Shown here in pieces: positions 30,518 to 35,638 of a stretch of DNA of 64,000 nt. Each line of letters starts with the position of its first letter. Position 1 is the stretch's first letter. The position numbers and the translations under genes are program-made. Under the pieces are notes generated by a model. That model ran no database searches and had not been told where the DNA came from. It saw only the letters and a list, made by a program, of their open reading frames with translations. Source of the stretch: Hyphomicrobiales bacterium (GTDB lineage Bacteria; Pseudomonadota; Alphaproteobacteria; Rhizobiales; OSC116); contig JABSRZ010000003.1 in the NCBI GenBank assembly GCA_013214705.1, forward strand, positions 186,001 through 250,000, written 5' to 3'.

Positions 30518-33349
30518 ATGGCAAATAATAAAATGCTTATTGACGCAACGCACGCGGAAGAAACACGTGTTGTTGTCGTCAAAGGAAACAAGATTGAAGA
30601 ATTTGACTTTGAGGCCGCTAACAGACGGCAACTTAAAGGCAATATATATTTAGCAAAAGTCACCCGCGTTGAACCTTCGCTGCAAGCTGCATTTGTAGAT
30701 TTTGGCGGCAATAGGCACGGCTTTTTGGCGTTTAGCGAAATACACCCAGATTATTACCAAATTCCTGCGGCTGACCGGGCAATATTGCGCCAAGAAGAAG
30801 CTGAAGCCGTTGCCGCGGCAAAATTGGAAGATGAGCTTGAAGATGCCAATGCCGATGCCAATGCCGATTTAGACGCCGAAACGCGCGATGAAGAAGGTAA
30901 TGAAGGCAATAATGGCCGGCGCGGTCGCAACCAAAACCGCCGCCGTGGCAGACGTAATAACACCCGCTTTGCCAGACGGCCTGCGCGCGGCATTTACACC
31001 TCGTTGCCAGAAACTGAGGCCAAAGAAGATGGTGTTAAAAGCGCCACTGACAAAGATGATAATGACGAAGCCAAAAACTCACGCACCCGCGGTGGCCGGG
31101 GCCGAGGTCGGGGTTATAGAAACCGCGGTCGCAGCCGTTGGAACCGCGGCGGAAACCGTTTATTGCGCGGTGTATATACATCACTACCGCCATATATAAG
31201 CGCCTTAAACGAAGACACTCCGTTTGAAAAATATGACCAAAAGCAAGCCGAAGCTAAACCAACATCGTTGCCCGAGGCCACCGGTTTGGCAGACAGTGTT
31301 AAATCAGATCAAATTGCTAATAATTCTGGCGTTGTGTCGATATTTGACGAAGAATCCACTCCAACCGACAAAACATCAGATGTCGATACAGATGTAGAAG
31401 ATGATGACGCAAGCCAAGCTAAAGTTGCGGATGAACCTACTGACACTGGTAAACGTGCTGCGCCTGCTGCCAAACCAGCCAAGCGCAAAACCCGCCCACG
31501 CAAACGTTATGAAATTCAACAGGTGATTAAACGCCGCCAAATAATTTTGGTGCAAGTGGTTAAAGAAGAACGTGGCAATAAAGGCGCGGCTCTCACCACC
31601 TATCTATCGCTTGCTGGCCGTTATTGTGTGCTTATGCCCAACACCGCCAAAGGTGGTGGCATTAGCCGTAAAATTACCAATATATCTGATCGTAAACGCC
31701 TTAAAGAGGTTGCCGAAAGCCTAGTTTTAGATGAAGGTATGGGACTTATTGTCCGCACTGCCGGGGCTAACCGCACCAAAATAGACATTAACCGCGATTA
31801 TGAATATCTAATTCGGTTGTGGGAAAATGTGCGTAATTTAACTTTGCGTTCTGTCGCCCCGCATTTGGTATATGAAGAAGGCAATTTAATTAAACGTTCG
31901 ATCCGCGATTTATATGACCGCGAAATAGACAGCGTTATCGTATCTGGCGAAAAAGCTTATAAAGATGCCAAAGCCATTATGCAAATGCTGATGCCAAGCC
32001 ATGCCAAAAAAGTACTGCATTATAAAGAAGCCCAACCTATTTTTATTCGCCATCAAATAGAGCAACAGTTGGATTCGATTTATAGCCCGAATGTAACTTT
32101 AAAATCTGGTGGCTATTTGGTCATAAATCAAACCGAAGCCTTGGTGTCTATCGACATTAACTCGGGTAAATCGACCAAAGAAAATTCAATAGAAAACACC
32201 GCGCTTAAGACCAATTTAGAAGCGGCCGAAGAAATTGCTAGGCAACTAAGATTGCGTGATTTGGCAGGGCTTGTGGTTATCGACTTTATCGATATGGAAG
32301 AAAGCCGCAACAATCGTGCTGTAGAAAAACGCATGAAAGATTGCCTCGCTTCTGACCGTGCGCGTATACAGGTCGGGCGCATTAGCCATTTTGGTTTGCT
32401 AGAAATGTCTCGCCAGCGGTTGCGGGCAAGCCTGCTCGAAGGCAGCACCGATATGTGTCCGCATTGTCATGGCACAGGGCTTATTCGGTCAAATTCATCT
32501 ATGGCTTTGCACATTCTAAACGCATTAGAACACCAGTTAATTCAAGGGCGTGGGCCATCGCTTAATATATTTGCGCCGTTGAACATCACCATGTTTTTAC
32601 TCAACAATAAACGCGCGCAATTGTTCGAAATTGAGAATAGATATAATGCCCGGGTGAATATAGAAGTAGACCCGCATTTAGAAGGCGTTAGTTATCGGAT
32701 AGAAACATCAGATGTAGAAGTGGCCACCAGTAAAACCGGTGCTATTCGGCTTGAAACTGAATATGGTACAGATGATGTATTGGAGTCAGAAACCCAACAA
32801 TTGGCAACAGCTGATGTTGACGTAGAGGTTGTTGTCGATGCCAAACTTGCTACTGATGGCAATGCTGCTGAAGGCACTGCTGATGACGGAACTGGCGACA
32901 AAAAAACCAAGCGCAGAAACCCGCGCGAACGAAGCCGCAATGGCCGCCGGAAAACCTCTAGAAGTCAGGGCGCTAAAAACACCGACACGGTTGCGAAGCC
33001 TACTGAAGATAAACCGGTAGACAAGCCGGCTGAAACCCAAAAATCCAACGAAACAGCAGCGGTAAATGCCGGTGAAAAACCAGCGGCAAGCGTTGACGTA
33101 GCTGAGGATAAAGTGGCTAGCAAAGCCAAAACGGCTGAGAAAAAACCCAAAGCCAGAACCCCGGCTAAAGCCAAAAAAGCCGGCGATGACGCTAAAAAAC
33201 CGGTTAAGAAACCGGCTAAGGCAAAAACTGCAAAACCGGCCGAAGCTAAGGCTGAGAAAGCTCCAGACACAAAGGCTAGCGACACAAAGGCGCCGGAGAA
33301 TGCAGAAGCCAAACAGGGTTGGTGGTCAAGGCGTTTTAGCCGTAGTTAA
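30518..33349 (+). CDS. rne: Ribonuclease E
   Basis: A 943-residue endoribonuclease for mRNA decay and rRNA/tRNA maturation. The catalytic half is complete: S1 start (LKGNIYLAKVTRVEPSLQAAF), 5' sensor and DNase I-like parts with the metal aspartates in VSIDINSGKS and VIDFIDMEE, and the Zn-link CPHCHGTG. Inside the S1 domain, about residues 92-330, lies an insertion with an acidic block, Arg/Gly-rich blocks and the peptide RG(I/V)YTSLP twice (about 158-164 and 218-224). The last roughly 200 residues are Ala/Lys/Pro-rich and disordered, the usual degradosome scaffold region. A GAGAG site precedes the ATG. Confidence 0.95.
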   Translation: MANNKMLIDATHAEETRVVVVKGNKIEEFDFEAANRRQLKGNIYLAKVTRVEPSLQAAFVDFGGNRHGFLAFSEIHPDYYQIPAADRAILRQEEAEAVAAAKLEDELEDANADANADLDAETRDEEGNEGNNGRRGRNQNRRRGRRNNTRFARRPARGIYTSLPETEAKEDGVKSATDKDDNDEAKNSRTRGGRGRGRGYRNRGRSRWNRGGNRLLRGVYTSLPPYISALNEDTPFEKYDQKQAEAKPTSLPEATGLADSVKSDQIANNSGVVSIFDEESTPTDKTSDVDTDVEDDDASQAKVADEPTDTGKRAAPAAKPAKRKTRPRKRYEIQQVIKRRQIILVQVVKEERGNKGAALTTYLSLAGRYCVLMPNTAKGGGISRKITNISDRKRLKEVAESLVLDEGMGLIVRTAGANRTKIDINRDYEYLIRLWENVRNLTLRSVAPHLVYEEGNLIKRSIRDLYDREIDSVIVSGEKAYKDAKAIMQMLMPSHAKKVLHYKEAQPIFIRHQIEQQLDSIYSPNVTLKSGGYLVINQTEALVSIDINSGKSTKENSIENTALKTNLEAAEEIARQLRLRDLAGLVVIDFIDMEESRNNRAVEKRMKDCLASDRARIQVGRISHFGLLEMSRQRLRASLLEGSTDMCPHCHGTGLIRSNSSMALHILNALEHQLIQGRGPSLNIFAPLNITMFLLNNKRAQLFEIENRYNARVNIEVDPHLEGVSYRIETSDVEVATSKTGAIRLETEYGTDDVLESETQQLATADVDVEVVVDAKLATDGNAAEGTADDGTGDKKTKRRNPRERSRNGRRKTSRSQGAKNTDTVAKPTEDKPVDKPAETQKSNETAAVNAGEKPAASVDVAEDKVASKAKTAEKKPKARTPAKAKKAGDDAKKPVKKPAKAKTAKPAEAKAEKAPDTKASDTKAPENAEAKQGWWSRRFSRS

Positions 33350-33370: not shown

Positions 33371-33408
33371 ATGCGCGGCCAAACAATTTGCTTTGACCGC
33401 GCATTATT
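33371..33408 (+). terminator. Probable terminator of rne
   Basis: ATGCGCGG (33371-33378) pairs with 33397-33404; after one mismatch four further pairs extend the stem, and TATTTT follows. It lies 22 nt after the rne stop. Confidence 0.55.
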
Positions 33409-33562
33409 TTGAAATTAGTAACCTTAAATATACTTTTTAACCACATTATAGAAAACAAGCGGAGAGCCTAACTTAAAGGCTTGCACTAATCTTAACGGCA
33501 TTTATTATGTGGTTACAATTATTAGACAAATTGAATTTATGATTTGTTACATGGAGGTGATT

Positions 33563-34327
33563 ATGAGTAATTTAATCGTCATAAGGATGTCAAAATTTAT
33601 CGCGGCTGTCTTATTGAGCTGGGCACTCTTATTTTCCACAATTAGCCACGCGGCCGAAGAATTTACGGAAGCCCAAAAATTTGAAATTATTCAAATTTTT
33701 CAGCAGTTTTTTCTTGAAAATCCCGAAATTATCCGTGAAGCGCTGATTGCGCTAGAACAAAAAAATGAGGCCATTCGGGCCAATGAAGTGCGCGAAATCA
33801 TCAGAAGCCAAAAAAGCATCATCGAAAACCCAATCGGTTTATATAGCGCTGGCAACCCAGATGCCGATGTCACGCTGATCGAATTTTTCGATTATAACGA
33901 CCCCAATTCCAAACAATCTTTAGCAGATATAATATATTTGTTGGAAAATGATGCTAATTTAAGAGTGGTGTTTTACGAAACGCCAATGCATGCGCAATCG
34001 TCACTCACCGCATCGCACGCGGTGTTGGCAGCTAAAAACCAGGGTAAATATTTAGAACTGCATACAGCTTTGCTAAGCCATAACGAATTGTTAGATGAAA
34101 ACATCATAATGGACATTGCCAAAAAAGTAGGCTTAAATGTCGAAACCTTGAAAAAAGACATGGCAGCAGTTGAAATAGAACAAGCTATCGAAAACGCGTC
34201 TAACATTGCCGAGATTTTGGGCGTGCAAGGCACACCGGCTTTCATCATTGGCAATGAATTATATAGAGGTTCTATTGGCCTTGAAAATTTACGCGCCAAA
34301 ATAAATGAAGTTCGCATAAATCGATAA
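33563..34327 (+). CDS. DsbA-like protein that lacks both active-site cysteines
   Basis: A 254-residue exported thioredoxin-fold protein of the DsbA/Com1-like group. Signal peptide with cleavage near TISHA-AEE (about 30), a helical N-terminal region, then the fold ending in the cis-proline loop GTPAFIIG. Where its paralogue two genes downstream has YNCTYCK, this protein has YNDPNSK: Asp113 and Ser116 replace both cysteines, so it cannot do disulfide chemistry at this site. It may be a chaperone or binding partner. A very strong GGAGGTGATT site fixes ATG 33563 over the start 54 nt upstream. 11 nt before aroQ. Confidence 0.85.
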   Translation: MSNLIVIRMSKFIAAVLLSWALLFSTISHAAEEFTEAQKFEIIQIFQQFFLENPEIIREALIALEQKNEAIRANEVREIIRSQKSIIENPIGLYSAGNPDADVTLIEFFDYNDPNSKQSLADIIYLLENDANLRVVFYETPMHAQSSLTASHAVLAAKNQGKYLELHTALLSHNELLDENIIMDIAKKVGLNVETLKKDMAAVEIEQAIENASNIAEILGVQGTPAFIIGNELYRGSIGLENLRAKINEVRINR

Positions 34328-34338
34328 AGGATATTGGC

Positions 34339-34773
34339 TTGAATATATCTATTATTAATGGCCCCAATTTGAACATGCTGGGCGTTAGAGAACCAGAAAT
34401 TTATGGTTCATTAAGCCTTGCAGACATTCAAAAATCTTGCCTCGACCTTGCTAAAAAATTGTCCATCAGTGTCGATTTTTATCAATCCAACCACGAAGGT
34501 GAGATTGTAGAGGCCATTCATAGAGCCTATGAAAATAAGCACACGGCCATTATCATTAACGCCGCGGCCTACACCCACACAAGTGTGGCCATATTGGATG
34601 CGTTAAAAGCCACAAACATCCCCATTTACGAGGTGCATCTGTCTAACGTGCATGCACGCGAGACATTTCGGCATCAATCCTACATATCAGCCATTGCAGA
34701 AGGTGTCATTTGTGGTTTAGGGTTAGAAAGCTATTTGGCAGCGATCAGAGCTGTTGCGCAAAAATATAAATAA
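34339..34773 (+). CDS. aroQ: 3-dehydroquinate dehydratase, type II
   Basis: A 144-residue enzyme of the shikimate pathway, making 3-dehydroshikimate. Family landmarks: INGPNLNMLGVREPEIYG with the catalytic Tyr, SNHEGEIVEAIH, IINAAAYTHTS and EVHLSNVHARE with the catalytic His. It starts with TTG (34339) after AAAGG; the protein then begins exactly where relatives do. It lies between the two DsbA-like genes, with short gaps of 11 and 16 nt, so all three are probably one transcript. Confidence 0.95.
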   Translation: MNISIINGPNLNMLGVREPEIYGSLSLADIQKSCLDLAKKLSISVDFYQSNHEGEIVEAIHRAYENKHTAIIINAAAYTHTSVAILDALKATNIPIYEVHLSNVHARETFRHQSYISAIAEGVICGLGLESYLAAIRAVAQKYK

Positions 34774-34789
34774 ATGGATATAATTACAC

Positions 34790-35638
34790 ATGGCTTTTAA
34801 AAATTTCTTATCTGGGTTTTCGCTGTTGAATTTGGCGTTTAAAATATTTGTGGTTGTGGCCATATTGGGTTATTTTTTTCTAAATACATCTTTTTTATCT
34901 AAATTTAATAATGACGCTGAAACCACACCACCGGTGGAAGTGGCAATGGTGGCAACACCTGATAAAGCCGAAATGGAAAAAATGTTTCGCGAATATTTGC
35001 TAACCAACCCCGAGATTATTCAAGAAGCCATTGCTGTATTGCAAAATAAAGTTCAACAACAACGCGAAAATGACATTACAGCCATCATTCAGAACCAAAT
35101 AGAAACCATTGAAAACCCTAAAGGTTTATTTATCAATGGCCCTGCCGATGCCGATGTAACCTTGGTCGAATTTTTCGATTATAACTGCACCTATTGCAAA
35201 TCTGCTTTTAAAGATGTCAACCGGCTGCTAGCCGAAGACAAGAAACTAAAAGTGGTGATGTATGAATTGCCAATTTTAGCGCCCTCCTCGCTAACCGCTG
35301 CGCGGGCTTCATTAGCGGCGATGAAACAGAATAAATATTGGGAGTTTCATAGCTCGATGATTGGCAATAATGGTAGCTTAACCGATGAATTGGTGTTTGA
35401 TCATGCTAAAAATATTGGCTTGGATATAGAGCAATTAAAAATTGATATGGTGAGCCGCGAGGTTGAACAGGCTTTAGTTTATTCTGCTCAATTGGCCGAT
35501 GAATTAAAAGTCAATGGCACACCGGCGTTTATCATTGGCGGGAAATTGATACCCGGCGCAATCGGCTATCAAAATATGTTTAACCTGATTGCCGAGGCGC
35601 GGGCAAAAATTGCCGCACAAAAAGCGTCAGCTAACTAG
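34790..35638 (+). CDS. Membrane-anchored DsbA-family thiol oxidoreductase
   Basis: A 282-residue protein. One uncleaved hydrophobic helix (about 14-33) holds a periplasmic thioredoxin-fold domain. The active site CTYC has Cys133 and Cys136 (EFFDYNCTYCKSAF), and the cis-proline loop is NGTPAFIIGG. It should form, reshuffle or reduce disulfides in secreted proteins. It is closely related to the cysteine-less protein on the other side of aroQ, with the same N-terminal helical region, so the pair looks like an old duplication. No DsbB is nearby. Confidence 0.9.
   Translation: MAFKNFLSGFSLLNLAFKIFVVVAILGYFFLNTSFLSKFNNDAETTPPVEVAMVATPDKAEMEKMFREYLLTNPEIIQEAIAVLQNKVQQQRENDITAIIQNQIETIENPKGLFINGPADADVTLVEFFDYNCTYCKSAFKDVNRLLAEDKKLKVVMYELPILAPSSLTAARASLAAMKQNKYWEFHSSMIGNNGSLTDELVFDHAKNIGLDIEQLKIDMVSREVEQALVYSAQLADELKVNGTPAFIIGGKLIPGAIGYQNMFNLIAEARAKIAAQKASAN

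Follow-up and report, generated by a model that had tools for sequence, protein, structure and literature searches.

The window, a stretch of 64,000 nucleotides from a bacterium of the order Hyphomicrobiales, contains an aroQ gene flanked by two genes of the DsbA family. The gene order is rne (30518-33349), a Cys-less dsbA (33563-34327), aroQ (34339-34773), a CxxC dsbA (34790-35638), accB, and accC. The two dsbA genes and aroQ, a type II 3-dehydroquinase gene with a TTG start, lie on the plus strand, as do the features within and just ahead of the Cys-less gene given below. The upstream copy encodes DPNS at the CxxC position and the downstream copy CTYC, and both products match Pfam DSBA, which upholds the original prediction of a DsbA pair around aroQ whose upstream member lacks the catalytic cysteines. 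A terminator-like, 13-bp GC-rich inverted repeat follows rne (33371-33404; flagged on the minus strand, with no strand set); it is a consensus match and not evidence of function, and suggests that a new transcription unit may start downstream of it. The strong ribosome site foreseen for the Cys-less gene is present in the window, with the Shine-Dalgarno sequence GGAGGTGAT (33551-33562) shortly upstream of the ATG. CGGAGG also precedes the ATG of this gene in the congeneric metagenome-assembled genomes (MAGs) NORP194 and NORP94; the site in a third congener, BB6, is weaker.

The Cys-less gene encodes a 254-residue protein that reads EFFDYNDPNSKQSL around the active site and has no cysteine in its entire length; its partner reads EFFDYNCTYCKSA. 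The motif is thus FFDYNDPNSK in the upstream copy versus FFDYNCTYCK in the downstream copy, with DPNS at residues 113-116 (33899-33910). The CxxC motif of thiol-disulfide oxidoreductases is replaced by DPNS in four of four species, and none of these proteins has a cysteine anywhere. The match to Pfam DSBA (PF01323) scores 62.9 bits, against a cut-off of 25.6 (4e-17). The partner matches DSBA at 1.5e-22 and the ScsC_N stalk domain at 3e-11, above the cut-off of the latter; the Cys-less protein scores 22.3 for ScsC_N, below the cut-off of 25.8. Pfam, the structural model and Foldseek all identify in the Cys-less protein a thioredoxin fold with a helical insertion, as in the DsbA/ScsC family. The Gly-Thr-cis-Pro loop (residues 223-225; 34232-34240) is conserved in the alignment, and GTPAF is kept in both paralogues, as originally noted, and is invariant in all four Cys-less copies. 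Inspection of residues 1-30 (33563-33652) points to a putative signal peptide, plausible in having a hydrophobic segment and ...SHA/AEE. In the window's CxxC partner the N-terminus is long and hydrophobic (34790-34950), shows no obvious cleavage site and is possibly a membrane anchor. The NORP194 and NORP94 partners differ in that their N-terminus is short, resembles a signal peptide and ends in AHP.

An AlphaFold2 model of the Cys-less protein, built from a 51-sequence alignment, had a pLDDT of 93.8 and shows an intact DsbA domain preceded by a helical stalk at the N-terminus. The stalk (about residues 31-82; 33653-33808), with model helices at residues 36-52 and 54-82, is homologous to the trimerization helix of ScsC. 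Foldseek gave Caulobacter ScsC (7rgv) as the closest solved structure, with a TM score of 0.80 by query and 0.91 by target, and the alignment extends over the 7rgv stalk. The model and the alignment therefore both give the Cys-less protein the N-terminal helical stalk through which ScsC-type proteins trimerize; Caulobacter ScsC is a trimer joined by its N-terminal helices (PMC8900818). Within this stalk, the Cys-less copies have a phenylalanine, F50, at the position of the Caulobacter trimer-core Leu19, a correspondence read from the sequence alignment to 7rgv. The partners have Leu or Ile there, and no Phe occurs at this position among the other family members compared.

Four residues, D113, N115, S116 and H143, occur in every Cys-less copy and, at those positions, in none of 43 other family members, all of which have Leu in place of His143 (codon at 33989-33991). 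By the known topology of this fold, strands 133-139 and 103-109 should run parallel in the model; residues 140-143 should therefore lie at the edge of the active site.

The order rne, Cys-less dsbA, aroQ, CxxC dsbA, accB was found in three of the five congeners, the MAGs NORP194, NORP94 and BB6, and the search of relatives for the pair that had been suggested thus recovered the same Cys-less site in all three that hold the locus. The remaining two congeners lack the locus and are 71-75% complete; they lack aroQ as well, so we count these absences as assembly gaps rather than losses. The FFDYNDPNSKQSL site is identical in the window and the three congeners. In the surrounding 26 codons, variation is purely synonymous at 15 and alters the amino acid at 2. 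The window and its congeners share 68-73% identity in the Cys-less copy and 50-55% in the CxxC partner.

Because dS is saturated in comparisons of the window with its congeners, a usable omega came from the NORP194-NORP94 pair only, a single pair within a sample of four species. By NG86, dN/dS for this pair was lowest in the Cys-less copy (0.085), followed by the partner (0.108), aroQ (0.113), rne (0.117) and accB (0.237), so that the proposed check for purifying selection returned a value of about 0.09. In the Cys-less copy, synonymous change significantly exceeded non-synonymous change (Fisher p = 5e-16). YN00 estimates for the same pair were 0.14-0.24 and did not separate the Cys-less copy from its partner. 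The Cys-less copy is constrained at least as tightly as the active enzyme, and more so over longer distances.

It had also been proposed that CxxC at the same position in relatives, together with relaxed selection, would indicate decay. A copy with CxxC does occur upstream of aroQ, but only outside the genus, in order-level relatives, and selection on the Cys-less copy is tight rather than relaxed. A decaying dsbA pseudogene, for which the loss of both catalytic residues after a lineage-specific duplication might speak, is so improbable that it can be set aside, given full-length open frames in four species and slower evolution than in the active twin; four separate assemblies, along with the selection data, rule out decay or sequencing error. 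Purifying selection, replacement residues kept throughout the genus and the absence of cysteine strongly support the maintained non-redox role suggested at the outset, and it is nearly certain that a non-redox function of this copy is under selection.

A phylogenetic tree of 99 proteins, for which the CxxC columns were masked, placed the four Cys-less proteins in one clade and their four partners in another; the two jointly formed one clade (100/99) standing apart from the order-level DsbAs. The simplest history for this topology would be one duplication before the radiation of the genus, followed by a single loss of both cysteines. Many relatives have a single CxxC dsbA directly upstream of aroQ-accB, so it is the Cys-less copy that sits in the seemingly ancestral place. 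The present layout could have been caused by a tandem duplication of dsbA-aroQ and subsequent loss of the second aroQ. In the genus (loci L001-L004 and L036-L038), rne lies directly upstream of the dsbA copy, whereas at loci L064 and L072 the two genes are some 1.6 kb apart.

Both cysteines were kept in all 105 DsbA-family homologues sampled from other genomes of the order (aligned over at least 90 residues), a sample that represents the stronger matches rather than every DsbA and includes one protein from the genus, an unrelated DsbA from BB6 with CPHC. The FFDYNDPN motif was confined to the genus (4 of 398 order genomes). Across the class, a pattern of FFDYN followed by a non-cysteine residue matched in 12 of 385 genomes, never in a DsbA, and the reversed control pattern matched more often. 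We rejected a widespread Cys-less class on these two results. Tandem DsbA-family pairs upstream of aroQ were seen at six loci from other alphaproteobacterial and Micavibrio MAGs (L042, L079, L090, L093, L098 and L105); the divergent second copy in these pairs keeps CxxC, as in EFVDYRCHYC.

Apart from the aroQ pair, the genome has two further DSBA matches, both to proteins without an evident signal peptide (one FDFAS-type and one CSWC-type). It encodes one intact DsbB with CALC and the loop cysteines. There are also two DsbD_TM matches, but their frames, at 262 and 231 residues, could not accommodate all three domains of a DsbD or ScsB. With the active copy and DsbB both present, ordinary disulfide formation is possible.

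Since the cysteines are gone and yet the copy is kept more strictly than its active twin, it probably has a job that does not require redox chemistry, and handling unfolded proteins is the most likely one. The explanation we prefer, to which we give about an even chance, is that the Cys-less protein forms redox-dead oligomers of the ScsC/DsbA type, binds clients in the periplasm non-covalently and is co-expressed with the active enzyme. It would be exported to the periplasm and oligomerize through its N-terminal stalk, probably as a trimer, and a remodelled groove beside the cis-Pro loop would bind unfolded or translocating clients. In this role it would be a holdase or an escort that uses no thiol chemistry, and disulfides would be the work of the CxxC paralogue and DsbB. 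Export, trimer formation, client binding, co-transcription and this division of labour are what we infer from the features described above. A chaperone action would fit the fold and the known behaviour of DsbA, which acts as a foldase on substrates that lack cysteine, an activity mapped to its groove (PMC8386657). Redox-inactive thioredoxin-fold proteins are known to serve as chaperones or structural subunits; a redox-inactive variant of TRX z still complements (PMC4036507), and the redox-dead PDI-family protein ERp29 works as a chaperone (PMC7506106). Several features weigh on the other side. Groove-lining positions are more polar (Leu to His143 and Tyr to Asn115), so that binding of hydrophobic clients may be weakened. 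Reduction of E. coli DsbA greatly weakens its foldase effect (PMC8386657), and loss of the disulfide might therefore reduce such an effect here. F50, at a trimer-core position where the rest of the family differs, would also count against a trimeric client binder.

The Cys-less protein could instead be half of a bacterial periplasmic folding unit with two components. A redox-dead protomer of the ScsC type, with a D-x-N-S/His site built for the purpose in place of CxxC, would work there in a defined complex with the catalytic paralogue, through mixed trimers or client hand-over; we consider this a tentative proposal with a modest chance of being correct. Another alternative is that Cys-less and CxxC protomers join through their homologous stalks into mixed oligomers, in which the former dilutes or positions the active sites and so regulates its partner. 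The two genes are linked in the same order throughout the genus and both proteins have an ScsC-like stalk, but the stalks of the two paralogues are 32% identical, no closer than the Cys-less stalk is to those of other family members (33%). Within the genus the partner stalk is not specially conserved (54% identity, against 84% among the Cys-less copies), and the trimer-core position is Phe in one paralogue and Leu or Ile in the other. We regard this alternative, and with it mixed trimers of the two proteins, as possible but unlikely. The original suggestion that the copy regulates its active partner had two points behind it and no others, the shared gene cluster and the homologous stalk, and the pattern of stalk conservation does not appear to favour a shared interface.

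About as likely as the mixed oligomer, and a live alternative, is a new binding or catalytic site, in which CxxC would have given way to a site for a metal, a ligand or enzymatic activity made up of D113, N115, S116 and H143. The invariance of these residues in the Cys-less copies and their restriction to them speak for such a site, but we found no known Dsb-fold enzyme with this set.

One Cys-less DsbA-like gene outside the genus, of separate origin, was found, in a single genome, that of Micavibrio sp. UBA6147 (L044:3873-4475; EFFDYNSKWSRRS, with SKWS at the site and the cis-Pro kept). Like the window copy, it lies beside a CxxC DsbA gene, which it directly follows, and upstream of aroQ. It differs in being distant in sequence, with 200 residues, a shorter N-terminus and a separate, long-branch position in the tree. 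No close orthologue was found in 376 genomes of the class (best match 36%), and the 30 loci that were read all had CxxC. Cysteine loss in aroQ-linked DsbA pairs may thus have occurred more than once. A protease-like HExxH gene precedes dsbA at the Micavibrio locus.

The foldase role of DsbA is hard to separate from its thiol chemistry in vivo. If a non-covalent client binder is the correct reading, a lineage whose cysteine-stripped DsbA duplicate is under tighter selection than the enzyme would have separated the two functions naturally. We found no description of a Cys-less bacterial DsbA, or of a bacterial periplasmic equivalent, in the open-access literature. The ScsCs of Caulobacter crescentus (7rgv) and Proteus mirabilis are trimeric CxxC disulfide isomerases that have the fold, stalk and Thr-cis-Pro loop in common with the Cys-less protein, which differs from them in having no catalytic cysteines, His143 in place of a groove Leu, and F50 at the Leu19 position. 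The closest solved catalytic domain by sequence (3.7e-30) is the thioredoxin-like oxidoreductase 3gyk of Silicibacter pomeroyi, which has Cys after FFDYN (FFDYNCPYC) where the Cys-less protein has Asp. ERp29 and Wind also have a thioredoxin fold without CxxC, act as chaperone or escort, and oligomerize through an N-terminal domain (PMC7506106). They are eukaryotic proteins of the endoplasmic reticulum, dimeric and with another domain order, and are thus analogues rather than homologues. If our preferred reading holds, the Cys-less copy would be a bacterial counterpart of these redox-dead PDI-family chaperones.
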